DNA of 64,000 nt from Chloranthus sessilifolius (taxonomy: Eukaryota; Streptophyta; Magnoliopsida; Chloranthales; Chloranthaceae), in contig CM037595.1 of assembly GCA_021018995.1 (NCBI GenBank), forward strand, positions 93,880,491-93,944,490. Direction: 5' to 3'. Each line of letters begins with the position of its first letter. Positions within the stretch are counted from its first letter, which is position 1. The translations under genes were made by a program, and so were the position numbers. The notes under the pieces are model-generated. The model did no database searches. It was not told the DNA's origin and saw only the letters and a list, made by a program, of their open reading frames with translations. Positions 9,687-58,784 of this stretch are shown here, in pieces.

Positions 9687-12055
9687 TGTGGCAACCCGGA
9701 TTTTCGACCCCGGAAACCCGCGCCGTCGGATGGTTCATAAGACCAATCCCCGCATGGAACACTTGGCACATCCACACGCAAAGCGAAAACCAAGCACACA
9801 CACACACACACACACACAAAAGAAATCTCCAGTTCTAATATCAGACTAGCGCTCAAAATAACAGTTCTAATCTTATGTGAGTGCCCATGACCAAAAGAAT
9901 CGAAAAGAACCACCGGTAAGGGTCGTTCCTTACCGAAATATGGTTCACAAAACAATAATGCAAACTAATTTCAAGTATCTGAGTTGTACAACAAAATGGT
10001 TGGACGTACCAAGCCGAAACTACACAAAATCGCAATCTAAGTCACTCCCTTTGTTGGAAAAACTCCTCACGTGGAGGCTCTGACTCCTCCCCCGGTGTGT
10101 ACTCGGAGTCCTCCAAGTCAATATCTTCGATACCAACGTCTTCACCTGAACCTGCGACGTATAGTCGAAGGGTGAGCTTCATCCAAGCTCAATAGAGAAA
10201 ATATCCATAGCATGCCTTTTTTATCTCATTGCACATATATTGCATGACAGATATGAAAGAATTTAAGAGCACATGAAGGGCATTTAAATCAAAGCAAAAT
10301 GAATCATATGCAGAATTTTAAAGTGTCACATGGTTTACAAAGCTTTTCACATCTCACACAAAGGAAACTTAAATTGATAACTTAATTCTTCCTCCGATCA
10401 TCTACAGGATCGAGCCCCCGATGAAATACCCACCATTGTCATTCATATGAAGCCTTTTACATGATGTCAAGCCCCTGAACTCACAATGACCATTCTCGGT
10501 CCACGCGTCATACAAAGTTGTATGACGCGTCAGTCACAATTATCTCGCCGAGTAGGTTGGGTATTCATGTATAAACCTTAAATCAATGTGCAAAAATAAT
10601 TTATAGTTTACCACCATGTATTGTGATAATTTAGAGCTAAGCTTAGGATTGAAAAGAAAGAATTTCACATAACCATATGTCACACACACATAATTCCGAA
10701 TTGTGCTAAGTTCAAGCCCACACACGCACAACATTTCTCACTCTTAAATGAGAGTACAAGATCCACATAACTTAATTGACAAGGTATCATGATTTTCACA
10801 CACATATACTGATCATATCACAATTCATATGCTTATCATAACAAAGGTACGTGCGATAGAATTTTCCCTACCTCACGTGCAATCCATACGAAGTCCTTCT
10901 TCACAATGGTACCTTCACAACACACGTTCACAATCTAAACCTAGAACACATCAACACATGTCTTATATGTCAAAACTGAAGGAGTAAAAGAGGTCTCAAA
11001 AGTCCCTTTTCTCAAAACTAACAAATGTCAGAATCTGACAAAATCGATCGATCGAATCCCAATCCGATCGATCGAAATGCATTTTGATCGGTCGATTTCC
11101 TTCACAATTACACAATTCTCTGTTGCCTAACTTGTTCCAAAATCGATCGATCGATTCTCAAAACCGATTGATCAGTTTCACAATTCATCCTCGCGAGCTC
11201 ACAGGCAGCCTGGCGAGCATCTTCGCGAGGTCACCAACAACCTTGCGAGATTTTTTTGCACAGCATCTGCTCAAACCACGCGAGAACCTCGCAACCTGGA
11301 CCCAAATCCTCACGAGACACAATTCGATCGATCGGATTCCCTTCAGAAATCACATTTCTCCGTTCTGTTGGTATGACTACTTCCTGACAAAATCGATCGA
11401 TCGGATCTCAATTTCGATCGATCAATTTTGTCAGATACACAACTCTTCGAGCTTTTCTTCTTACGTTTTATTTCTCTCAAAACTCAAAATCCATTTCATT
11501 TATTACAACATTTTAGGGCATTTATTTCCCCCAATCACAACACACTCATCCATTAATTTCATATCTCCTAAAGCATTAACTTCAGATCTCCAAATCTTAA
11601 ACACACATTATTCAAATCATAAATGCTTACCTTAGAACCAAAACTCTGCACAAAGAACCCCAAATCTTCATATCTCTGGTTTCCTCCTTCTACACTTCAA
11701 AGGTTTCGAAAGCTCATCTTATTGCGATCAAATCGAATTCACTCGAAATCAATGCTCACCTTAAAGTGTTGGAACTAAGCTAGGGCTTTCTTCTTCTTCA
11801 CACAACTTCTTTCTAACACAAAGCAAGGACCTAAATTTCCTATCCATGTTTTGCTTTTATACTTAAAGTCTAAGTTTGGGTGTTACACCTATACACCACA
11901 CCTTAGTGTACACCATCCCATCTAGTGGTTATTTCATCATAGATTCTCATTCTTATTTCATTTATCAGACCAATGTCATCATCTTGAAATATGTGTCCGA
12001 TTGGGCACGCATCACGAGTCATATGGTTCGAAAGTCAAATTTTTGGGTCTTTACA
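9687..12055 (-). repeat. 3' LTR of the Gypsy element
   Basis: 2,369 bp. It is the left copy on the plus strand and the downstream LTR for the minus-strand element. It contains a (CA)n run near 9797-9820 and a cluster of GATCGATC palindromes at 11040-11430. The 183-codon open frame at 11084-11635 is simply LTR sequence without a recognisable protein. Confidence 0.92.
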
Positions 12056-12069
12056 TCCTCTCGTCCTTG
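12056..12069 (-). other. Polypurine tract of the Gypsy element
   Basis: On the minus strand the bases next to the 3' LTR read CCAAGGACGAGAGGA, a purine-rich plus-strand primer site in the expected position. Confidence 0.7.
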
Positions 12070-12832
12070 GGAATTTTCGTTCGCGAAAATTGGTTAAGGT
12101 CGCATTTTGGTAGCACGTTGTCGCACACAGACAAAACAGCTAATGAGCAAAATTGTTCTTCCTTTTAGAGAATCCAATCCGTTAACGAAGACTTAGTAAG
12201 TCATAACTCTAATAAAAATTCCTAGTCAATCAAATTCATGCCATGTCTCCCGTCACATCTAACCACTAACATTGACCATTCAATCACACATGTAGCTTAC
12301 AAGAGTCAATTTAACTCGGCTATTGTACCTACACGAAATTCATCATTTTACCCACAATGTCCACACATTCGTCCCATTCACAACCACAAGAACATAAGGC
12401 ATGAATATCTAACAAGGTGTTGAAATCAAGTATCTATTCACAGGCCAAAATTAAACAATACGTCCACAAACCAAAAAGGAATTAAACTACATATCTGCGA
12501 AGCCAAAAAGAAATTTAAAGGTCTACCAAGACCCAATAATTCTTACAAACCATTTTACTTTCAAATTAAACTCCCAAAAACTTAAAAATCCCCTAGCCTC
12601 AAGGATCCTACAGTGCCTCCGAAGGTCTTGCCTGCTCCTCGTCAGCTGCTCCAGGTCCCCTCATACCAAAACTGGACGCATCAGGAAGAAAGGCACGCAC
12701 TAGCCATGCGCTACAAATAGTCGACGGATACATGAATCGCATGGTTTCACCCAACACCGCGTCATGGTAGTCCAATCATCAGCTGAGCTAACGGTGGTTT
12801 TCATTCATTTGTTGTGCGCACTCATCTATTCT

Positions 12833-13857
12833 TCAGACGTTTTCAGTCATGAGGGTAATAACATCATCCCTCGCAGCATCCCGACTTGCTGGCACACGTG
12901 GTGTTGTTGGCTGCTGAGGCGGCTGCTGTGTTGGTGATACTTGTTGCCCCGGTCCTTGTGCTACCACAGGTGATGGTTCCAATCCTCTTACTTGCACACT
13001 TTTTTCCAACTGATTGAAGGCTTTCTTCCAATCTTTAAATGAATAAATTTTCTCATTATCCGCCAATCGTGGCTCTATTTTAGAAATTTGATAATCATCC
13101 CCTTCTCCCACATAGTCCTCAATCATTGCCGAAATCAGGCGAGCATAGGGTATCTCATCCTTCGGGTTTGATGCTTCCTCTAACATTTTCTTTCTCACGT
13201 ACACAATACCGTCATGAACTAACTCAGACGCATCAAACCATCAGCCCGTAAATGCCGAATACAGTGCCTACAACAAAAGCTCTACTCTCTCCGTTTTATG
13301 CCTCATAGGGTATAGATTCGCCTTGATAATAGTGTCTAACATCCACATTTCACAAGGCAAATCAGCCCGCTTTACTGCTTGGCCTAACCCATGCCTGCCT
13401 TGGGTCATCTCTGCGCACACAACGTGAAATTCTACATCTTCCTGGTAGGGCTCTTCTAACTCTATATTATTGCCATAGTTAGGGTAACACTCCAATGCAT
13501 CGCTAATAGTGTCAAAATCGAATTTATACTCCCTGTTACCAATTTTCATATAAATCACCTTATCATCTTCCCCTTTGTACATATTCTGGAAAAATAATTT
13601 CACTAGTCTAGGGTAATAGTAATCTCCTAAAGGTTTGAGTACGTTTTCGAGTCATGCTTTCTTAATGTAGTCTAAGGCCCATCGAGTTAAAGGGATCTCC
13701 TCGAAAAGTGCAGGGTCAAAGGTTTGTTAGACCATAAATTCCTTGGCTGCCCACCAAGCATTAGGTCTCTCTAATGTCGATCGACGCGAAGAACCCGAAT
13801 GTGTCGTGGGCTGCTTCGAAGTCGAAGGCTTAGCAGGTTGCTTCCCTTTTGGTGCCA
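12833..13857 (-). pseudogene. Extra coding region between pol and 3' LTR of the Gypsy element
   Basis: On the minus strand it starts at about 13857 with a basic, Ser/Thr-rich leader (MAPKGKQPAKPSTSKQ). It continues with a globular part containing 'RHGLGQAVKRADLPCEMW' and 'LYPMRHKTERVELLL', then 'EIPYARLISAMIEDY', and ends in a Gln/Pro-rich tail. It resembles the 'putative plant transposon protein' domain found as an accessory frame in plant retroelements; its function is unknown. It lies in sense orientation downstream of pol. Like the rest of the element it is broken. Confidence 0.6.
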
Positions 13858-14420
13858 TTCAGTCTTAAGAAAAACCTAAAAACTAGGGTTTTAATGGAAG
13901 AGAACTCAAAGAAATTTCCAAGAAAATGTAGGATCTTACCTCTAAGAGTGATTTGGAGTTATACTCATGAAGATTTGCACTCCAATGTTGAAGATTAATG
14001 CTTAATATTGATGGCTAGAATAAACCCCAACTGCACAGTAATGAAGCCCTAAAAGAACCCTCTAAAAAATTTTAACCAAATGAAGAAGTTACAACCCGAT
14101 TTCTTTATATATCCCCGAAATCGATCGATCAGTTTTCGTAATAACCCTACCTACTTAAAACTGGCTATTTACTGAACATGTCGAGTTTCAATTTGAACTT
14201 CACGAGGCATTTTCGATCGATCAGTTTTGTAAAAAATACTCAATTTATTCTGCAATCCTTCTCCTACTTGTTTTAGTGCATTTATGTTCAAATTTCTGAA
14301 TAAGCCTTATCATTTGACTCATAGTGGTGCCCTTGTATAGACAGAATGAGCCAGATATTTTAAAACATTAAATGAACAACTTTTGCATTAATAATTACTT
14401 GCTATTACAATTCTCTCGAG

Positions 14421-15737
14421 TCACTCATAGAACAATTGGGGGTATTGCTTGAGAATCTCTGCTTCACGCTCCCACGTAGCTTCCTCTCGGGAATGATTCT
14501 TCCATTTTACTAATACTAAAGGAATGCGCTTATTACGCAGTACTTGCTCCTTTCTGTCGAGTATCTGAGCAGGCTCCTCTCTAACGATTAAATCCTTATC
14601 AATCGTAATCGGCTGATAATCAAATATGTGAGTAGGGTCTTTTACGTACTTTTTTAACATCGATACATGAAATACATTGTGTACTCCATCAAGTAGCGGG
14701 GGTAACGCAACTCTATATGTTACTTCTCCCACTCTTCCCAAAATTTCAAAAGGTTCGATATAGCGCGGACTTAGCTTCCCACGCTTCCCAAATCGCATAA
14801 CTCCCTTCACTTGAGAGATCTTGACATACACATGATCGCCAATCTAGAAATCGACACTCGTTCTCTTGATGTCGGCATAGCTCTTTTGTCTGCTCTGAGC
14901 TGTCTTGATCCTTTCACGAATTAGACGAACGACATCGGCATTGATCTTAATAATCTCTGGACCAAGTATAAACTTTTCACCGGTCTCTTTCTTATTTATC
15001 GGTGATCTACACAGCCATCCATATAACGCTTCATAAGGTGTCATACCGATACTTGTCTGAAAACTGTTATTATATATAAATTCGATCAATGGTAAGTGTT
15101 GATCCCACTATCCTCTGAAATCAAGCATATGCGCTCTGAGCATGTCTTCGGTTATCTGATTCACCCTTTCGATTTGTCCATCTGTCTAAGGGTGGAACGC
15201 TGAGCTAAAATCCAACCTTGTACCCATCCCTTCTTAGAATTTTCACCAAAACTGTGAGGTATATAATGGGTCACGATCATAAACAATGCTCATCAGAATA
15301 CCATGAAGTCGGACAATCTTTCTCATGTACAAACTCGCTAATTTACTTGTTGTGTATGTAGTGTTATAGGGAAAAAAGTGTGCTGATTTGGTTAGTCTAT
15401 CCACTACTACCCAAATAGGATTATGGCGTCTTGCTGTCCGTGGTAATCCCAAAATGAAGTTCATTGAGATTGACTCTCATTTCCATTTTGGTATCGGCAG
15501 AGGTTTCAATAGGCATGCTAGATGCCTATGATCCACTTTCACTTGCTGACATACTTGACACTTTAAAACATATTCAGCCACATCTTTCTTCAAACCTCTC
15601 CACCAGAAATTCTTCTTCAAGTCTTGATACATTTTCGTACTGTCAGGATGAATAGTATAGCGTGATTTGTGTGCTTCATCTAGAATAGTTTGTCGAAGAT
15701 CGGCATCTGTTGGAATACATAAACGTCCTCTAAACAT
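14421..15737 (-). pseudogene. Integrase and chromodomain remains of the Gypsy element
   Basis: In minus-strand order: a zinc-binding part ('CQVCQQVK'), catalytic core pieces ('MNFILGLPRTARRHNPIWVV', 'RLTKSAHFFP', 'YNNSFQTSIGMTPYEALYG'), then the GPF-like 'IEPFEILGRVGEVTYRVALP' and a chromodomain-like end ('LVLVKWKNHSREEATWE'). The integrase of Gypsy elements inserts the cDNA into the genome; the chromodomain steers chromoviruses to chromatin. It is a fossil with several breaks. Confidence 0.85.
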
Positions 15738-15856
15738 CAGCGATTCATCCTCTTATTGAAAAATTTGTATTGGTGTCATCTATCACTGCATGTTTGATCT
15801 TCAATAATTTTGTATCTTGCATCTGAAATTCATGCACTTGATCAAAGGTCGTTAGT

Positions 15857-16541
15857 CTAATCGAGATATTTGGCAACAAAAAAACCTGAATCTTGTACTT
15901 CAATCCTTGCATCGTATTGCGAAAGATCCTCAAGTAATTTCCATCTATGAATCCTCGAAATTATACTAGATAATTGAGCTGAACTCTTTCGACTCAAGGC
16001 GTCTGCCACTACATTAGCCTTGCCCGAATGATATTGAATTGCAGAATCATAATCTTTCAAAAACTCAATCAATCTTTGTTGTTTCATATTCAACTCTTTC
16101 TGTGTAAATAGATATTTGAGACCCTTATGATTTGTGAAGATTTCAAATGCTTCTCCATATCTTGAAGGCAAAAATTACTGCAGCTAACTCCAAATCGTGC
16201 ATTGGGTAATTTTTTTCATGGTCTTTCAGTTATCAAGATCCATACACAATGACCTTATTATGTTGATTCAGCACACATCCCAGCCCACTATAAGAAGCGT
16301 CATTGTACACGACAAACCCTCCACTGCCTAATGGAATAGCTAAAACTAGTGTGGAGGTAAGTCTCTTCTTCAACTCCTGAAAACTCTTCTCACACTCTTC
16401 ATTCCACTCAAACTTGGTGTCTTTCCTTGTGAGTTTGGTGAGTGGCTTTGAGATCTTAGAGAATCCTTCTACAAATCTCCTGTAATAACCTGCTAGACTG
16501 AGGAAACTTCGAACTTCGTTTCCGTAGTTGGTTGCTTCCAA
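15857..16541 (-). pseudogene. RNase H remains of the Gypsy element
   Basis: The segment contains '[19 protein letters not shown]' and 'FEWNEECEKSFQELKKRLT' leading into an RNase H part ('VVYNDASYSGLGCVL', '[13 protein letters not shown]', '[16 protein letters not shown]'), the conserved order after the Gypsy reverse transcriptase. It is a fossil. Confidence 0.85.
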
Positions 16542-16723
16542 TCTACCACTGCCTCAATCTTCGATGGGTCAACTGTAACACCTTCCTTAGACACAACATG
16601 TCCCAGAAAACTCACTTGCTCTAATCAAAATTCACACTTGTTGAGCTTTGCATAGAGTTGGTGTTCATGTAGCGTTTGTAAGGCCATTCTCAAGTGCTTC
16701 TTATGATCTTCCTTGGACTTAGA

Positions 16724-17623
16724 TTAAACTAAGATGTTGTCCACAAATACCACTACACGCATGTCTAGATGTGGTTTAAACACTCTATTCATAAGGTTCA
16801 TAAATGAAGCTGGTGCATTGGTCAATCCAAAAGGTATTATCAAAAATTCGTAGTGCCCATATCTAGTCCTAAATGTCGTCTTCTGAATATTTTCAGCCTT
16901 GACCTTCAATTGATGATACTCGGATCTCAAATCAATCTTCAAGAAGAATCGGGCTCCTTGTAATTGGTCAAACAAGTCATCGATCATTGGATGCGGATAT
17001 CGATTCTTAATTGTCAACTTGTTTAATTGACGATAGGCGATGCATAACCTTATTGACCCGTCCTTCTTCACAAATAGGACCCGTGCTCCCCACGGAGACA
17101 CACTAGGTCTTATGAATCCCTTATCCAATAGTTCTGGCAGTTGATCCTTCAACTCTTTCAATTCAGCTGGGGCCATTCTATATGGCGCTTTAGACATTGG
17201 TTCCGTACCTGGCACTAAATCTTTGGCGAACTCAACTTCCCTATCAGGCAATTCCAGCAACTCTTAAGGAAAAACATTCTCAAAGTCACATGCTACCAGA
17301 ATGTCCGCTATCACATTCTTTCCTCCCTTATCTTCTTGCAAGAATGCCAGATATCCGTTACACCCTTTCCTCATCATCTTCTGTGCACGGACAGCAGAAA
17401 TGAGTCGTACAAATGTCGATCGCATGCCGAGGAAATTATATGATTTACCCTTGTTTGGGTGGAATGTAACGATCTTCCTCCGGCAATCCACGCTTGCACC
17501 ATGGAAGGATAACCAATCCATGCCAAGGATTACATCGAATCCTTGCATATCTAACAGTATTAAATTTGCCTGCAACTCGTAGTCTATATATCCTTTGACG
17601 ATTACCATCATAGATCGACACAC
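16724..17623 (-). pseudogene. Protease and reverse transcriptase remains of the Gypsy element
   Basis: The upstream part holds the end of the aspartic protease region with the conserved 'FDVILGMDWLSFHGASVDC'. The downstream part has the reverse transcriptase landmarks '[19 protein letters not shown]', '[15 protein letters not shown]', '[10 protein letters not shown]' and '[15 protein letters not shown]'. It is a fossil. The plus-strand frames over the same bases are shadows. Confidence 0.87.
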
Positions 17624-18031
17624 TGTATAGATTGTAACCGCACTCCCCGTTGGGACTGACAGACCCTGGGTCTATCAGAACTCATGCTTCATAGCAAAGA
17701 AAATTATCCTTTTTACCCATTTGTAACGTACCTACATTATGTATATACACACTAAATTTAAGCGCAGAATCAATTTAGCAAGTATGGTAGTATATTAACG
17801 TAATAAAAGAATTTCTATTTTTCTACACATGCACCTTCTCTATCTAAACTAAATTAAAGAATTCACTGACTTCAATAAAATTATCATACCCTGTATGATG
17901 TTATTGCTCGTGTTGGCATCCTTGGCGGTGACCGCATACGCCCGACCTTGCACTGTGGGTCGTGGTTGTCGTGTAGGTCGTTGTGGTCCGATAGAATTTA
18001 CCCTTCCTTCACCTTTCAATAGCGGGCAATC

Positions 18032-18880
18032 TCAGATTAGATGTCTCACTTTCCCGCATTTGAAACAACCGCCCGTACCATGTCTGCACTCGGACGTCAT
18101 GTGAGACTTACCACACTTGGCACAAGTCTCGGTGGGACTAGACGATGCGACCTTCGAGAATCTCTGGGTGACTGACACCCCTGTGGTAGAAGTAGGACTC
18201 TCTTGACGAACAAATCTCCCTTGAGTAAGCATAGGTGGTCTCGTATAATTGGCTTGAGTAGGCAGTCTTGGGAGTGGCGCTGTAAATTTTGGCTTTTTAT
18301 TCACCGATTAAAAATTTCCCGGTCTCGCCTAACTCATTATGTTCTTGTTTTGTTGGTCTCGCCTCTTGTACATATTTTCTACATTTTTTTCGGCGACCAA
18401 CGCCTTTCCCATTACTGCCCCATAGGTTTCCAATTCAAATACTGAAACCCTTTCCCGAATGATCGGTCTTAAACCTTCCTCAAATTTGTTGGCCTTCATC
18501 AATTCCGTGGCCACGTACTCTGGAGCGAATCTTGATAACCTCGTAAACTCTGTCCCGTACTCCCGCATGGTCATTCCTCCTTGCTCCAATCTCATAAACT
18601 TGGTTGCCATATGGTTTCTCAAATGTTTCAGAAAATATTCCTTGTTGATGACCTCTATGAACTCTTCCTAGGTCCATAGACGACCTGAGTGTTCTTGCTC
18701 TCTTTGCATCAATACCAACTTCCACAACGGGTCGACATCTCCCTCCAACTGAAATGAAGCCCAACTGACCTTCTCATCATCGGTATATGGCAATCTATGT
18801 AGGAGCTTCTCTATCTGATTCAACCACTTTTCCGCCTCTAGTGGATCCATCTGACCATAAAAGCTAGGAGGTTTCAATCT
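18032..18880 (-). pseudogene. Gag remains of the Gypsy element
   Basis: The N-terminal part carries 'MKPPSFYGQMDPLEAEKWL' and the middle 'RLEQGGMTMREYGTEFTRL' with 'EEGLRPIIRERV', typical of the retrotransposon gag domain. The end carries zinc knuckle motifs 'CAKCGKSHMTSECRHG' and 'CFKCG', which bind RNA in the particle. It is a fossil with several breaks. The stretch 18881-19320 between gag and the primer site has no further domain. Confidence 0.85.
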
Positions 18881-19324
18881 CCTAAACTCAACAAATCTGG
18901 ATGGCTAAGGTGGCACAGGAGGTGGTGTCGGAGGTTGGTGTTGGTGGTTATTGGCATTATTCGTTGCCATCAATGCGGTTTGTTGAGCCACAACGGTTGC
19001 CATGGCTTCCATGGCTTGGGCTAGCCTTTGCCTCTCTTCTCGGTCTTCTTCTCTCTCTTATCTTCTTTCTTGATTCTCTCTTTTCGGCACACTCATTTCC
19101 AAAATCCCTCTATCACGCATTGGTACTCTATTTGAACTTGTGGAGATCTCATCTCCACTTCTCAAATTTCATCTACGACCGCCTCTCGGCCGTCCTCTAC
19201 CTCTACTAGACATAAGTTCTGCAAACATGAAACCAAAGTTTTATTAGCAAATGGTCTCTATATTCTGACACAATATCTCAAACGTGCATTACGTGTTAAG
19301 AAAAATCAAAATTTCTAATGCTAT

Positions 19325-19338
19325 GCTCTGATACCAAC
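19325..19338 (-). other. Primer binding site of the Gypsy element
   Basis: On the minus strand this reads GTTGGTATCAGAGC, complementary to the 3' end of plant initiator Met-tRNA, directly next to the 5' LTR. It fixes the element's orientation. Confidence 0.9.
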
Positions 19339-21765
19339 TGTGACAGCCAGAATTTTACACCCCGAAAACTCGCACCATCAAATGGTCCATAAGACCAATC
19401 CCCGCATGGAACACTTGACACATCCACACGCAAAGTGAAAATCAAGCACACACACGAATAAGAGAAATCTCCAATTCTAATATCAAAGTAGCGCTCAAAA
19501 TAACGGCTCTAATCTCATGCGAGTGCCCATGGGCAAAAGAACTGAAAAGAATCACCGGTAAGGGTCGTTCCTTATCGAAACATGGTTTACAAAACAATAA
19601 TACAAACTAATTTTAAGTATATGAGTTTGTACAATAAAATTGTTGGACGTACCAAGCCGAAACTACACAAAATCGCAATCTAAGTCACTCCCTCTATCAG
19701 AAAAACTCCTCAGGCGGAGGCTCTAACTCCTCCCCCGATGTGTACTCAAAGTCCTCCAAGTCAATATCTTCAGTACCAGCGTCTTCACCTGAACCTGTGA
19801 CATATAGTCGAATGGTGAGCTTCATCCAAGCTCAATAGAGAAAATATCCATAGCATGCCTTTTGTATCTCATTGCACATATATCTCATGACAGATATCAA
19901 AGAATTTAATAGCACATGAAGGGCATTTAAATCAAAGTGAAATGAATCATATGTAGAATTTTAAAGTGTCACATGGTTTACAAAGCTTTTCACATTTCAC
20001 ACAAAGGAAACTTAAATTGATAACTTAATTCTTCTCCTGATCATCTATAGGATCGAGCCTCCGATGGAATACCCACCATCGTCGTTCATATGAACCCTTT
20101 TACATGATGTCAAGCCTCTGTACTTTATTACCAGGGTCACTTGACTAACAATATCCATTCTCGGTCCACACATCACGCAAAGTAGTACGGATATCCCGCC
20201 GTACCGGTCACGGATATCCCGCTGCGTCAGTCACGGTTATCCCGCCGAGTCAGTTGGGTATTCACGTATAAACCTTAAATCAATATGCGAAAATAACTTA
20301 TAGTTTACCACTGTATATTGTGATAATTTATAGCTAGGCGTAGGATTGAAAAGAAATAATTTCACACAACCATATGTCACACACACATAATTCCGAATCG
20401 TGCTAAGTTCAAGCCCACACACGTACACACATTTCTCACTCTGAAATGAGAGTACAAGAATCACATAACTGAATTGACAAGGTATCATGATTTCGCACAC
20501 ATATAGTGATCATATCACAATTCATATGCTTATCGTAACAAAGGTACATACTATAAAATTTTCTCTACCTCACACGCAATCCACATGGAGTCCTTCTTCA
20601 CAATGGTACCTTCACAACACACGTTCATAGTCTATATCTAGAACACATCAACACATGTCTTATACATCAAAACTGAAAGAGTAAAAGAGGTCTCGAAAGT
20701 CTTTTTTCTCAAAACTGACAGATGCCAAAATCTGACAAAATCGATCGATCGAATCCCAATCTAATCGATCGGTTCCAAAATTCGATCAATTGAAATGCAT
20801 TACGATCGGTTGGTTTCCTTCACAATTACACAATTCTCTATTGCCTAACTTATTTCAAAATCGATCAATTGGTTCTCAAAATTGATCGATCGGTTTCAAA
20901 ATTCATCCTCGTGAGCTCACAGGCAACCTGGCAAACATCTTCGCGAGGTCACCAACAACCTAGCGAGATTTTTTTGCACAACATCTACTCAAACCATGAG
21001 AGATCCTCGTGAGACACAATTCGATCAAATTCTCATTCGATCGATCGGATTCCCTTCATAAATCACATTTCTCTGTTCTGTTGGTATGACTACTTCCTAA
21101 CAAAAACTATCGATCGGATCTCAATTTCGATCGATCGATTTTCTCAAATACACAGCTCTTCAAGTTTTTCTTCGTATTATTTATTTATCTCAAAACTCCA
21201 AACCCATTTCATTTATTGCAACATTTTAGGGCATTTATTTCCCCCAATCACAATACACTCATCTATTAATTTCAGATCTCCTAGAGCATTAAATTCAGAT
21301 CTCCAAATCTTAAACACACGTTATTCAAATCATAAATGCTTACCTTAGAACCAAAACTCTGCACAAAGAACCCCAAATCTTCATATCTCTGCTTTCCTCC
21401 TTCTACACTTCAAAGGTTTTGAAAGCTCATCTTCTTACGATCAAATCGGATTCACTCGAAATCAATGCTCACCTTAAAGTGCAGGAACTAAGCTAGGGCT
21501 TTCTTCTTCACACAACTTCTTTCTAACACAAAGCAAGGAACTAGATTTCCTATTCATGTTTTACTTTTATACTTAAAGTCTAAGTTTGGGTGTTACACCT
21601 ATACACCACACCTTAGTGTACACCATCCCATCTAGTGATTATTTTGTCATAGATTCTCATTCTTATTTCACTTATCAAACCAATGCCATAGTCTTGAAAT
21701 ACGTGTCCGATCGAGCATACATCTCGAGTCGTATGATTTGAAAGTCAAATTTTTTGGTCTTTACA
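19339..21765 (-). repeat. 5' LTR of the Gypsy element
   Basis: 2,427 bp, TG..CA, colinear with 9687-12055 at roughly 90% identity by eye; many differences are C/T or G/A changes at CpG. GATCGATC palindromes cluster at 20740-21140. It is followed by the target duplication ATATT at 21766-21770. Confidence 0.92.
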
Positions 21766-25810: not shown

Positions 25811-26228
25811 AGGGTACCTCTGTTTGCTTCTACCCAATTACTTAAGACGCCTACACTGTAAACACGTTGACATCGTTGAATCGGACGATGGAGACCGATT
25901 TCATCCAATCATCCACATGATTGATCTTAACACTATGGGAGTACCATTAGACTGCCATTTTTGTATTCCACTTGGCACAAATCCCAAAAAATGATCCTAA
26001 AATCATGTTTGAGTTTGATGTGTCCTACATGATTTTTAAGTCACTTTTTTGGGATTTGTGCCATGTGGAATACAAAACTGGCAGTTTGATGATACTCCCA
26101 TGGTGTCAAGATCAATCGTGTGGATGATTGGGATGAAAATCGATCTTCATCATCCCGATTCAACGCAGTTAACGAGTTTGCAGTGTAGGTGCCCTCAGTA
26201 ATTGGATAGGCACAAACATTGCTACCCT
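25811..26228. repeat. Family A palindromic element, best-preserved copy
   Basis: The 418 bp are a near-continuous inverted repeat. The left arm starts AGGGTACCTCTGTTTG and passes 'acccaattact', 'gcctacactgtaaac', 'cgttgaatcgg' and 'gaccgatttcatcc'. The right arm is the inverse, ending GCTACCCT. The centre is 'atcatgtttgagtttgatg'. Such a copy transcribed within the TIM13 primary transcript could fold into a hairpin of about 200 bp; that is inference. Confidence 0.8.
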
Positions 26229-29371: not shown

Positions 29372-32300
29372 TGCGATCTCTGCAAGATAGCCACCTAGAG
29401 AGGGTATAGTTATGAAAAGCCTTAAATTAGTCTTTCAAGGTGGTTGAATTAATGAATATTTCACCAAAATTCTTTTGCCAATGACTTCTTAAGATCACCT
29501 AATATTAACCGCAGCTAGTAGGGCTTCAATAAGCTCCAAACATAATATTTAATTCAACTCTAAATTAAATTCCAACACGACAGGTTATTAAATAGACATT
29601 TACAATGCATGAAATTGGTACTACTCTGATTCCCAATTTAAATAAAGAGATATCCAAATTTCTTAAAACAATAAAATAAATCCTAAATATTAAGAAAATT
29701 AAACTTATTTCTAATGGAAACAAATTTGGCTGGCTAAGTAAAATAATAAAGGAAATTAATCTTAATTCAAGTAGAAGTCTTGAGATTTGTCACTTTAATG
29801 TCCTTCGAAAATTGACCATAATTTCTTGAGATTCGTCACTTTATTTCGATAAGCTTTTTAATAAATCCGGTTGCACATCAATCTGACGTCGTTTGATACT
29901 TGAAAATATGTCAAACAAAAAGTGACGGGATTGAAACTTGAGAACTATGTCACCGTCTGATCAACACATTTTTGAATCAATAAAAAAAATTCCTTTTCCT
30001 TCATCTTTTTTTTCTTCTTTTCATTTTTCTAATGTTCGTTCTTAGGCTTCGCAGTAGATTAAGATTCTGGACTACATCATTCTCCTTCTTTGGAGGAAAG
30101 TTCAACTTCAGACTTTCTGGAGATTGATTGTCTTCTCAAATAAATCATAGGCTATACCTTCTCTCCAGGCGAATCGTTGTGCTCAAACCAATGAAAGGGT
30201 GATGGTGATGATTTGAACATCTTTGTCATCTTCATAAACGTTGTAGATGGATATCCATATGCCATGCTCCATTCATCACTCGCTTCTATATCATTGTGTT
30301 GATTGTCGCCGCTTCGATTTGTTGATCGAAAGTAATTGCATTGGATTAAACGCGCTCTAATACCAAATTGATGTGATCCACGCACGATAGCCACTTAGAG
30401 TGGGTATTAGTTTTGACACAAGCCTAGCAAAACCTGCAAGAAGCTTTAAATTAGTATTCCACGGTGGTTGAATTAAGGAATATCCCACCAAAATTCCTAT
30501 GTCAATCAACCCACAAGATCACCTAATAGTAGGGTTTCAGCAAGCTTCAAACAAAATAATTATTCAACTCTAAATTGAATTCCAACACTTGTGGCCTTTA
30601 AATAGGCTTTATAATAACCTAAAATTAGAAATCCTAGTCTATTTCTAATTCTTAATTTAAATAAAGAAACACCCTACTTTTTCTAGAACAATATAATAAA
30701 GTCCTAAATAATAAAAAAAATTTAACCTATTTTTAATAAAGAAAAAAATCGTATTGGCTAAAATAAAATAAGAAAAGAAACTAATCTTAATTCCTCTAGA
30801 AGGGTTGAAAATTTTCATTTTTAGTGCAACTTCCCAAAACTAACCATAACTTTTTCAGTATGGTCAAAATGGTGTTTTTTTTGGCTCGTTGGAAAGCTAC
30901 TTTGATAAATTTTCAAATAAGGCCAATTTTGCATAAATCTGACGCTGTGATGCATGAAAATATGTCAAACATGAACGTAACAAGATTAAAATTAAGCACT
31001 TTGTGACGCGGGATGAAATCACTTGCCAACCCTAAAATAGCAAAATCTTGCGCGGAAGGGGATTTAGAGTATTCAAACATTTCATTAAAATAAAAATAAA
31101 AAGAAGAATAAGGTAGAAATCTTCGGATTCGCTTCAAAGAGACTTGTCGGCTTCACGCCAACGGGTTTTCCGAAGCTTCACACCACGGTTGTATGTCGGT
31201 TTCGCACCAAGTCGCACGAGAAACGATTGCTCATTCTGCAGGGTTTGAAGGATTCACTCCCTCGATTGAAAACTTTTCACAAGCTCTCTGGGGTTTGCAC
31301 AAAAGCAACTCTCTTTCATTCAATATCTATAATCAAGTCCTTAATAAAGTGTTTACAATGCCTTTATATAGGCTAAGAAAACCTTAAAACGAATATTAAC
31401 TAAAAGACAAATATACCCTTAAAACTAAAGTTCGAATTTTGATGTTTAAAGCAACTAAAACTGCTCGGCGTGATTTCCATCGATCGAAATCGAAAATCAT
31501 TCGATTGAAATTGAATTTCGTTCGATCGCAATTTCGATCGATCGAAATTCTCATATACATAAAATATCGTTGTTGACATTCAATCGATCGAAATAGGGAT
31601 TCGATCGATTGAAAATTTCGATTGATCAAAATTTAAATTCGATTGATCGAATTCGCCAAGTTCGATCTATTCTTCAGATTTTCGTCTTATTCGCGAGCCG
31701 TTTGCAAGCCCATTTATGGGTCCATTTTTTCATTGCTGATTTCCTTCGATTGTCTCGGCCACAGTCCAAACATGCGGATCTGAATTCCCCGTCAAAACTA
31801 ACACGGGACGAAATCGCTTGCTAACCCTAAAATAGCAAAATCCCGCGCGGAAGGGGGTTCAGGGTATTCAAACCTTTCATTAAAATAAAAAAAATAAAAA
31901 AAATCTTCGGATTCGCTCCAAAGAGGATTGTCGGCTTCACGCCAAAGAGGTTTTCTGAAGCTTCACACCACGACTATACGTCGGCTTCGCACTAAGTCGC
32001 ACGAGAAACGATTGCTCACTCTTCAGGGTTTGAAGGATTCACTCCCTCGATTGAAAACTTTTCACAAGCTCTCTGGGGTTTGTACAAAAGCAACTCTCTT
32101 TCATTCAATATCTATAATCAAGTCCTTAATAAAGTGTTTACAATGCCTTTATATAGGCTAAGAAAACCCTAAAACAAATATTAACTAAAAGACAAATATA
32201 CCCTTAAAACAAAAGTTCGAATTTAGAAGTTTAAAGCAACTAAAACTGCTCGGCGCAATTTCGATCGATCGAAATAAAAAATCGTTCGATCGCAATTTCG

Positions 32301-33403
32301 ATCGATCGAAATTGAAAATCGTTCAATCGAAATTCTCATATACATAAAATATCGCCGTTGACATTCAATCGATCGAAATAGGGATTCGATCAATCGAAAT
32401 TTTCGATTGATCAAAATTTAAATTCGATCGATCGAATTCGCCAAGTTCGATCTATTCTTCAAATTTTCGTCTTATTCACGGGCAATTTGAAAGCTCATTT
32501 ATGGGTCCATTTCTTCCTTGCTGATTTCCTTCGATTGTTTCGGTCACGGTACAAACATGCAGATCTGAATTCCCCGTCAAAACTGACACGGGACAAAATC
32601 GCTTGCTAACCCTAAAATAGCAAATCCCCGCACGAAAGGGGGTGTAAGGTATTCAAACCTTTCATTAAAATAAAAATAAAAAGAAGCATAAGGTAGAAAT
32701 CTTCGGATTCGCTCCAAAGAGGCTTGTCGGCTTCATGCCAATGAGTTTTCTGAAGCTTCACACTACGGCTGTGCGTCGGCTTCGCACCAAGTCGCACGAG
32801 AAACGATTGCTCACTCCTCAGGGTTTGAAGGATTCACTCCCTCGATTAAAAACTTTTCACAAGCTCTCTGGGGTTTGCACAAAAGCAACTCTCTTTCATT
32901 CAATATCTATAATCAAGTCCTTAATAAAGTATTTACAATGCCTTTATATAGACTAAGAAAACCCTAAAACGAAGATTAACTAAAAGACAAATATACCCTT
33001 AAAACTAAAGTTCGAATTTAGAAGTTTAAAGCAACTAAAACTGTTCGGCGCGATTTCGATCGATCGAAATTCTCATATACATAAAATATCGCCGTTGACA
33101 TTCGATCGAATTCTCCAAGTTCAATCTATTCTTCAGATTTTCGTCTTATTCGCGGGCCGTTTGAAAGCCTATTTATGGGTCAATTTCTTCCTTGCTGATT
33201 TCCTTTGATTGTCTCGGCCACGGTCCAAACATGCGGATCTGAATTCCCCGTCACTTTGTGACTCTCCGATCGCGATTTTCTGTGAATAGGTTAGAGATTT
33301 TGTTTGATTTCGTCTTTTTTTCCCATTTTCTGTTCTTTTCATATTTTCTAATCTTCCTTCTTGGACTTGACTTCGCAGTAGATTAAAATTTTGGACTTCA
33401 TCA
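29372..33403 (-). mobile_element. Miniature LTR element (TRIM-like) with a nested insertion
   Basis: Two direct repeats with TG..CA edges, 29372-30079 and 30372-33403 (about 0.78 kb without its insertion), flank an interior of only about 290 bp. That interior begins and ends, in minus-strand order, with a primer site at 30353-30371 (GGTATTAGAGC core) and a purine tract beside 30080 (CAAAGAAGGAGAA). There is no gag or pol. Small LTRs, primer site and purine tract without genes fit a terminal-repeat element in miniature, dependent on proteins from elsewhere. The LTRs look only about 75% alike by eye, so it is old. The right LTR is split by 31004-33253. No target duplication is evident. Confidence 0.7.
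31004..33253 (-). repeat. Three tandem LTRs joined by AAAC, one insertion with target duplication
   Basis: Three direct copies (31004-31794, 31799-32579, 32584-33253), each with TG-like start and GTCA end, are joined by the same four bases AAAC at 31795-31798 and 32580-32583. The whole block is flanked by the 5 bp duplication CTTTG (30999-31003 and 33254-33258), so it entered as one LTR-type insertion or grew after one. The copies look about 93-95% alike by eye; the third is shorter. There is no internal region, primer site or genes between copies. A TATATAAAGG-type box on the minus strand inside each suggests the minus orientation. Each carries TCGATCGA clusters. Confidence 0.85.
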
Positions 33404-58374: not shown

Positions 58375-58784
58375 TCTTTGGCCCCATGCATTGTCCGAAA
58401 GTGCTCACATATTAGAACCCTTGAAAACTATTGAATATTACTAATGAAATGATGGAGATTGTGTTTCACCCCGATCTTCCACATAATAGATCTTGAGATT
58501 GTGGCGCCCCTATGAGACGGTTAGTTTGTGATTTCATGTGTCACGGATCCCCAAAAAATGGCCCTCGAATCATATGACACACATCACACTTTAATGTGAT
58601 TTTAGTGCCATCTTTTTGGGATTTGTGACATGTGGAATCATAAATTTGATCGTCTCATAGGTGAGCCATGATCTCAAAATCTACTGTGTGGAAGATCGGC
58701 GTGAAAAATGATCTCCGTCATCTAATTAGAAGGAATCAATGGTTTTCAAGAGGTCTAGGACGTGAGCGCAAACAAAGGTACCCT
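58375..58784. repeat. Family A palindromic element
   Basis: 'gaaaactattgaatatta', 'atggagattgtgtttcac' and 'catgtgtcacggatcccc' at the left return inverted at the right; the right end 'gcaaacaaaggtaccct' is the inverse of the 25811 copy's start. Confidence 0.65.

Follow-up and report, generated by a model that had tools for sequence, protein, structure and literature searches.

Three head-to-tail LTRs with four-base joints that match a primer-side spacer inside one target duplication in Chloranthus sessilifolius

The stretch analysed here (the window; 64,000 nt of Chloranthus sessilifolius DNA on contig C12) contains three long terminal repeats (LTRs) lying head to tail, all inside one 5-bp CTTTG duplication and separated only by two identical four-base joints (Table 1). 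The TATA-like box found in all three copies, together with relatives elsewhere in the genome, marks the minus strand as the LTR sense, in which each joint reads CA-GTTT-TG. A sequence-only reading of the window had placed the three copies, the two AAAC joints and the outer CTTTG at these positions, and the feature is confirmed as read from the assembly; the TG..CA edges that it gave to the copies hold as a rule, one inner edge of copy 2 being TA (plus strand) instead of TG. The right flank reads CTTTG-TGAC, with TGAC also common to the LTR start, and five flank bases would match by chance about once in 1024 cases at equal base use. The copies are 89.7, 92.1 and 93.3% identical at ungapped sites (K2P distances of 0.111, 0.085 and 0.071). 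Repeats rich in GATCGATCGAAATT lie within the LTRs (31473-31652, 32254-32441 and 33049-33071), their number varying by copy, and comparable letters recur in the window at about 7.4-7.6 kb and 21.1 kb. That the array is known from the assembly alone leaves room for an assembler having duplicated one or two LTRs, but we regard this as barely credible, as the copies are 7-10% apart and have indels of their own, the window has no N, contig C12 spans 116.7 Mb, and five other loci show a like joint. Elsewhere in the window, positions 9687-21765 hold a minus-strand LTR element with LTRs about 89% alike, a primer site spaced by GT and AATAT on both flanks, and the segments 25811-26228 and 58403-58767 each resemble their reverse complement (81% and 75%), in the manner of fold-back elements.

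Table 1. Features of the LTR array in the window, and further loci in the genome at which two LTRs meet at a short joint
Feature	Position	Strand	Description
LTR copy 1	31004..31794	-	791 bp
LTR copy 2	31799..32579	-	781 bp; first two + strand bases TA
LTR copy 3	32584..33253	-	670 bp; shorter mainly through loss of two stretches of the GATCGA-rich part
Joint 1, AAAC (GTTT in sense)	31795..31798		equals the parent's LTR-to-primer-site spacer
Joint 2, AAAC (GTTT in sense)	32580..32583		equals the parent's LTR-to-primer-site spacer
Target duplication CTTTG, left copy	30999..31003
Target duplication CTTTG, right copy	33254..33258
TATA-like box, CCTTTATATAG on +	31361..31371, 32146-32156, 32941-32951	-	3/3 copies; putative function
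L041			LTR-GTTTAA-LTR dimer, family B; flanks TATTG/TACTG (4/5 bases match)
L040	C13:23505200-23514200		GTTTAA joint following an element whose LTRs are of a fourth type
L039			LTR-ATTTGGTATCAT-LTR-839 bp-LTR; CTCTA/CTCTA, perfect 5-bp duplication
L054			family C element-GTTTAT-family A LTR; composite flanks CCTTT/CCGTT (4/5 bases match)
L065+L068			LTR-GTTT-LTR-~4.8 kb-LTR; ATGAT/ATGAT, perfect 5-bp duplication

The repeat unit is an LTR, as had been proposed: besides the TATA-like box and the TG...CA ends it has a 5-bp target duplication, and its relatives flank an internal region with a primer site and a purine tract. A search of the window's own genome (2.17 Gb in 32 contigs) with copy 1 gave at least 82 matching stretches, these counts being lower bounds since 40 of 5522 candidates were scored. 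The full-length parent that the sequence-only reading had asked for was found in the same genome as a family, here called A, with LTRs of about 0.6-0.9 kb around an internal region of about 840 bp, far from an internal region of AAAC only; among the copy 1 matches listed, at least nine LTR pairs and at least one triple have 821-846 bp between neighbouring LTRs (by subtraction). The internal regions of family A relatives carry a primer site of the initiator-Met type and a purine tract. The family also includes a solo LTR (L024, GAACC on both sides) and a tandem with two internal regions (L018, CATTA/CATTA). In one copy of family A (L013) the internal region contains a 166-aa ORF that had no Pfam match at 0.01, while family C (L065), whose LTR tips are similar to those of family A, encodes Retrotrans_gag (3.3e-14) and RVT_1 (2.8e-37), domains that a Ty3/gypsy assignment of family A would call for in that family itself. 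Family A is thus probably non-autonomous, judging from that one copy. Searches for Rfam and viral contig matches returned none.

The borders of the parent family tell where the joint letters come from. In the 13 listed primer-side borders, read in sense, the letters before TGG are GTTT in seven, ATTT in two, ATT in three and GCTT in one; the border of a further locus (L010), seen separately, is also GTTT and adds one to the seven, and an LTR end followed by GGTTTGGTGTGAAGCC (L009), which was taken as flank, is left out of the 13. At L010 (C7:63476300-63479200) a purine tract precedes even the first LTR, so that the two LTRs probably belong to a longer tandem. On the purine side, GAGGAGAT directly precedes TG in all 15 starts that carry a purine tract (by eye). 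The array joint, set against these borders, retains the entire primer-side spacer GTTT and no purine-side base, as an end-joined cDNA junction would, although identical letters also fit a deletion between TTG repeats (see below). In LTR elements, the tRNA primer sets the position of the right cDNA end during reverse transcription, and GTTT is thus what an unprocessed right end is expected to carry; the left end may have been trimmed to TG or joined through microhomology.

This origin of the letters changes the idea of the sequence-only reading that each of two cDNA ends had contributed two bases. Of the bases expected beside the parent LTRs (plus strand), AC at the U5 edge fits, whereas AA at the U3 edge does not, the parent having AT there; since all four joint bases fit the parent's primer side, the two-plus-two rule is wrong. 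A division into GT and TT, suggested by three primer sites that belong to other elements of the window (GT before TGG at two of them, AG at one), is likewise contradicted by the parent borders. The proposed circle-derived or concatenated origin stands insofar as the joint looks like two reverse-transcribed ends meeting without an internal region inside one target duplication; it is not supported as to the two-plus-two rule and the later exchange added to it. The idea of joined ends is supported in a corrected form, with four bases from one end.

The array is not alone. A search for other LTR-joint-LTR loci yielded five more in the genome, making six loci with seven joints (Table 1). The joints of L041 and L040 have no microhomology, and their final AA equals the bases that precede the LTR in their families (GGAGAA before TG); in family B, GGAGAA precedes the LTR in L042 and L043, while the primer border assumed for L041 in a strict comparison is taken from other families because that of family B was not seen. 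The joint of L039 extends 8 nt into the primer site, with an overlap of 1 nt. In L054 the family A LTR taken alone has unlike flanks, TTTAT and CCGTT. The own primer borders of L065 (TTTT) and L054 (GCTT) are each one base off the GTTT of their joints.

Several neighbouring structures were met alongside these loci. At L040 (4532-7250) the third LTR stops about 542 bp after the joint and is followed by inverted primer-site and LTR copies, which might reflect self-integration. L043 (3713-5671 in C9:124279000-124287500) pairs an LTR of the family A type with one of the family B type, 169 bp apart and inside a perfect GTGAT duplication; normal reverse transcription is not expected to give two unlike LTRs in one insertion. 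L042 (3627-5639 in C1:41800500-41809400) has 147 bp between LTRs about 95% alike, within a perfect CTGGC duplication, and the primer site is absent after GTTTTGA. L083 and L087 (C3:1651900-1660150) show a family A LTR, ACTAAT, and then a family C LTR-internal-LTR-internal tandem, with CATAC as left flank; their right end lies beyond the sequence read, and they are left out of the six loci.

It should be noted that two of the searches named the spacer in their pattern and are biased to that extent; L054 came from such a search, as did L065 at first, which a spacer-free search then found again. The spacer-free searches returned seven LTR neighbours 0-30 bp apart (the array, L041, L040, L039, L065, L083 and L085), and in four of these the break falls precisely on the primer boundary (P = 3.5e-5 if breaks are spread uniformly over 31 positions). 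Two of those four, the array and L065, could also be reached by deletion through the TTG microhomology; if L041 and L040 are then the sole informative cases, P becomes 0.010 (of five) or 0.020 (of seven). Two of the seven do not fit, namely L083 (ACTAAT) and L085 (26 bp without a primer site, the second LTR belonging to family A). Reversed-pattern controls gave 0, 0 and 0 matches against 5, 5 and 6 for the spacer-free searches, and 3 and 3 against 7 and 8 for those naming the spacer. An unrelated LTR family (L088-L090) had no such joint, and neither a primer-site remnant pattern nor the pattern CCCGYGTCAN{0,12}TGACGGGGACG gave any match. Other candidate joint loci were set aside: the second LTR is absent in L044 and L045 and only putative in L046, L055 and L056 contain no LTR, L066 and L067 are ordinary elements with matching flanks, and L084 and L086 have no second LTR in 251 bp each.

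The same letters might have arisen within the chromosome, if slippage or microhomology repair, acting between the TTG of the primer site and the TTG at the border of purine tract and LTR, had removed the two internal regions of an LTR-internal-LTR-internal-LTR tandem. The 3-nt microhomology exists, its use would yield exactly CA-GTT-TTG-ACGG, and a suitable tandem is known in the family (L018). Shortened internal regions also occur, in L042 and L043 as well as in a control for gaps of 61-90 bp, whose one match has a purine-tract-like border, and the L039 joint could be obtained by deletion too. However, L041 and L040 break at the primer boundary with no microhomology, in L054 such a break joins two unlike families, the array would need two identical deletions or one followed by early expansion, and among the four matches of a control for gaps of 31-60 bp none has a primer-site remnant (by eye). 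We consider deletion an unlikely source of the array, though one to be taken seriously.

The divergence of the copies helps to order the events. In a tree built from 33 LTR rows (in which L014, L020 and L021 are each entered twice and the middle LTR of L039 is missing) the three array LTRs group together (98/94), their branches being nearly equal at 0.044, 0.042 and 0.040. Sites at which one copy differs from the other two number 30, 22 and 21 (chi-square P = 0.37) in the array, 18, 16 and 15 in L039, and 16, 17 and 14 in the tandem L018. The three LTRs within each of these composites thus began to diverge almost simultaneously, as fits a single event, and this counts against both a late unequal exchange and the entry of a circle into an older LTR. 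The 73 single-copy changes in the array include 47 G>A or C>T and 17 CpG transitions (the majority base being taken as older), a pattern such as would be expected of old methylated repeats.

The sequence-only reading had added unequal exchange as a later step, which is not supported by sister copies on near-equal branches and by the even distribution of single-copy differences. A quick expansion just after insertion is possible. In one form of it, an LTR-GTTT-LTR dimer would have inserted and gained its third copy shortly afterwards by unequal exchange; the joint would then have arisen as in our preferred account, and only the addition of the third copy would be different. Such a dimer exists (L041), unequal exchange is the usual proposal for tandem elements in the part of the literature available to us (PMC7215508), and copies 2 and 3 are grouped with a bootstrap of 97. 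That pair nevertheless has an SH-aLRT of 0 and an inner branch of 0.0009, the difference counts fit equal branches, and there are no mosaic runs (51 runs against 49 expected); we hold this route to be very improbable.

A two-LTR circle, or an LTR+GTTT mini-circle split off from one, could instead have recombined with a chromosomal LTR and added LTR+GTTT units singly. Such an exchange accounts for the repeat unit of LTR plus 4 bp, for the retained outer CTTTG and for L039 and L065 as one added unit each; the passages available of two studies report plant two-LTR circles formed by end joining (PMC9324142, PMC10959353), and those of a third propose that in yeast a circle may exchange with a solo LTR in the genome (PMC4751563). 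The resident LTR should then be older, yet the branches are nearly equal in the array and in L039, an objection that is valid unless the resident was itself new, and the unlike LTRs joined in L054 are not easily explained. Exchange with a circle therefore appears improbable to us, without being far-fetched.

Internal regions are kept in only 4 of 13 units at the six loci as against 21 of 22 ordinary family A loci (P = 9e-5, or 0.003 if three unclear loci are called solo), a comparison in which the 13 units assume that each joint once parted two full cDNAs, loci were classed by eye, units that share a locus depend on one another, several families are represented among the six loci and the ordinary set leaves out L020. 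Either the joined pieces consisted of LTRs only, or recombination removed the internal regions before or soon after insertion. Our guess is that plus-strand strong-stop DNA (LTR, spacer and a primer-site copy) provides a natural LTR-only piece, which would explain the 8 nt in L039.

The best reading of these data, to which we give a probability of roughly 0.6, is that cDNA ends were joined and the composite then inserted as one unit. The right end of a family A cDNA would have stopped at the former position of the tRNA primer, leaving GTTT after the LTR, and ends of this kind would have been joined, presumably outside the chromosome, to the TG left end of a second DNA that carried an LTR. The composite would then have entered one target site, probably by means of an integrase, with just the two outermost LTR ends processed, hence the single CTTTG duplication; internal regions would either have been missing from the joined pieces or have disappeared through LTR-LTR recombination, ahead of the insertion or shortly after it. 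Joining of ends is supported by the identity of GTTT with the family's primer-side spacer, by the microhomology-free GTTT+AA joints of L041 and L040, by the primer-boundary breaks in the spacer-free set, by L054, whose unlike LTRs homologous exchange does not easily join, and by L039 and L065+L068, which are LTR-joint-LTR-internal-LTR composites in perfect duplications. It is weakened by the two joints that TTG deletion could also make, by the misfit of L083 and L085, by the borders of L065 and L054 and the flanks of L041 and L054 that are each one base off, by the loss of internal regions, which needs explaining, and by the unrelated LTR family without a joint. We also entertain, as a speculation of low probability, that LTR-only pieces (for example plus-strand strong-stop duplexes of U3-R-U5-GTTT, which may or may not include part of the primer site) become linked to one another and to full cDNAs, even those of other families, and that an integrase inserts the composite as one unit.

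Elements with shared LTRs in tandem are common in plants, and the passages available of the papers concerned leave their origin between recombination and insertion of tandem products (PMC11899658; also PMC4717578, PMC7215508), one of them stating that rice haplotypes could not separate the two proposals (PMC11899658). As described there, these elements, including TA-TRIMs with three LTRs and two internal regions, resemble the array in having several LTRs of one family inside one 5-bp duplication (PMC11899658, PMC4717578, PMC7215508). Both kinds, of which L018 is an example, alternate LTRs with internal regions (L3I2 and the like), whereas the array has a 4-bp primer-side spacer in their place. 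A two-LTR circle junction, ascribed to end joining of linear copies in the portions seen of two studies, is also an LTR-LTR joint with few bases between (PMC9324142, PMC10959353); such circles are extrachromosomal, while the joint of the array is chromosomal and occurs twice. Solo LTRs such as L024 share with the array one target duplication and the want of an internal region, but consist of one LTR and not of three with joint bases. In the portions seen of the open-access literature we met no LTR-only array whose joints lie at the primer boundary within a single target duplication. One study, as far as its available text goes, controls for genomic reads with inserted LTR-LTR junctions, and in this way foresees genomic joints as a possibility (PMC10959353).

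Such genomic joints can mimic two-LTR circles in mobilome sequencing, and their letters provide a test of the origin of tandem elements that is applicable to any genome. If the joining of ends is true, old chromosomes preserve a readable record of retrotransposon cDNA ends before insertion, and joined cDNAs, which are often deemed dead ends, can become insertions. If the joining of LTR-only pieces is also true, the LTR-only arrays, extra-LTR elements and two-family composites found here would be fossils of one pathway.
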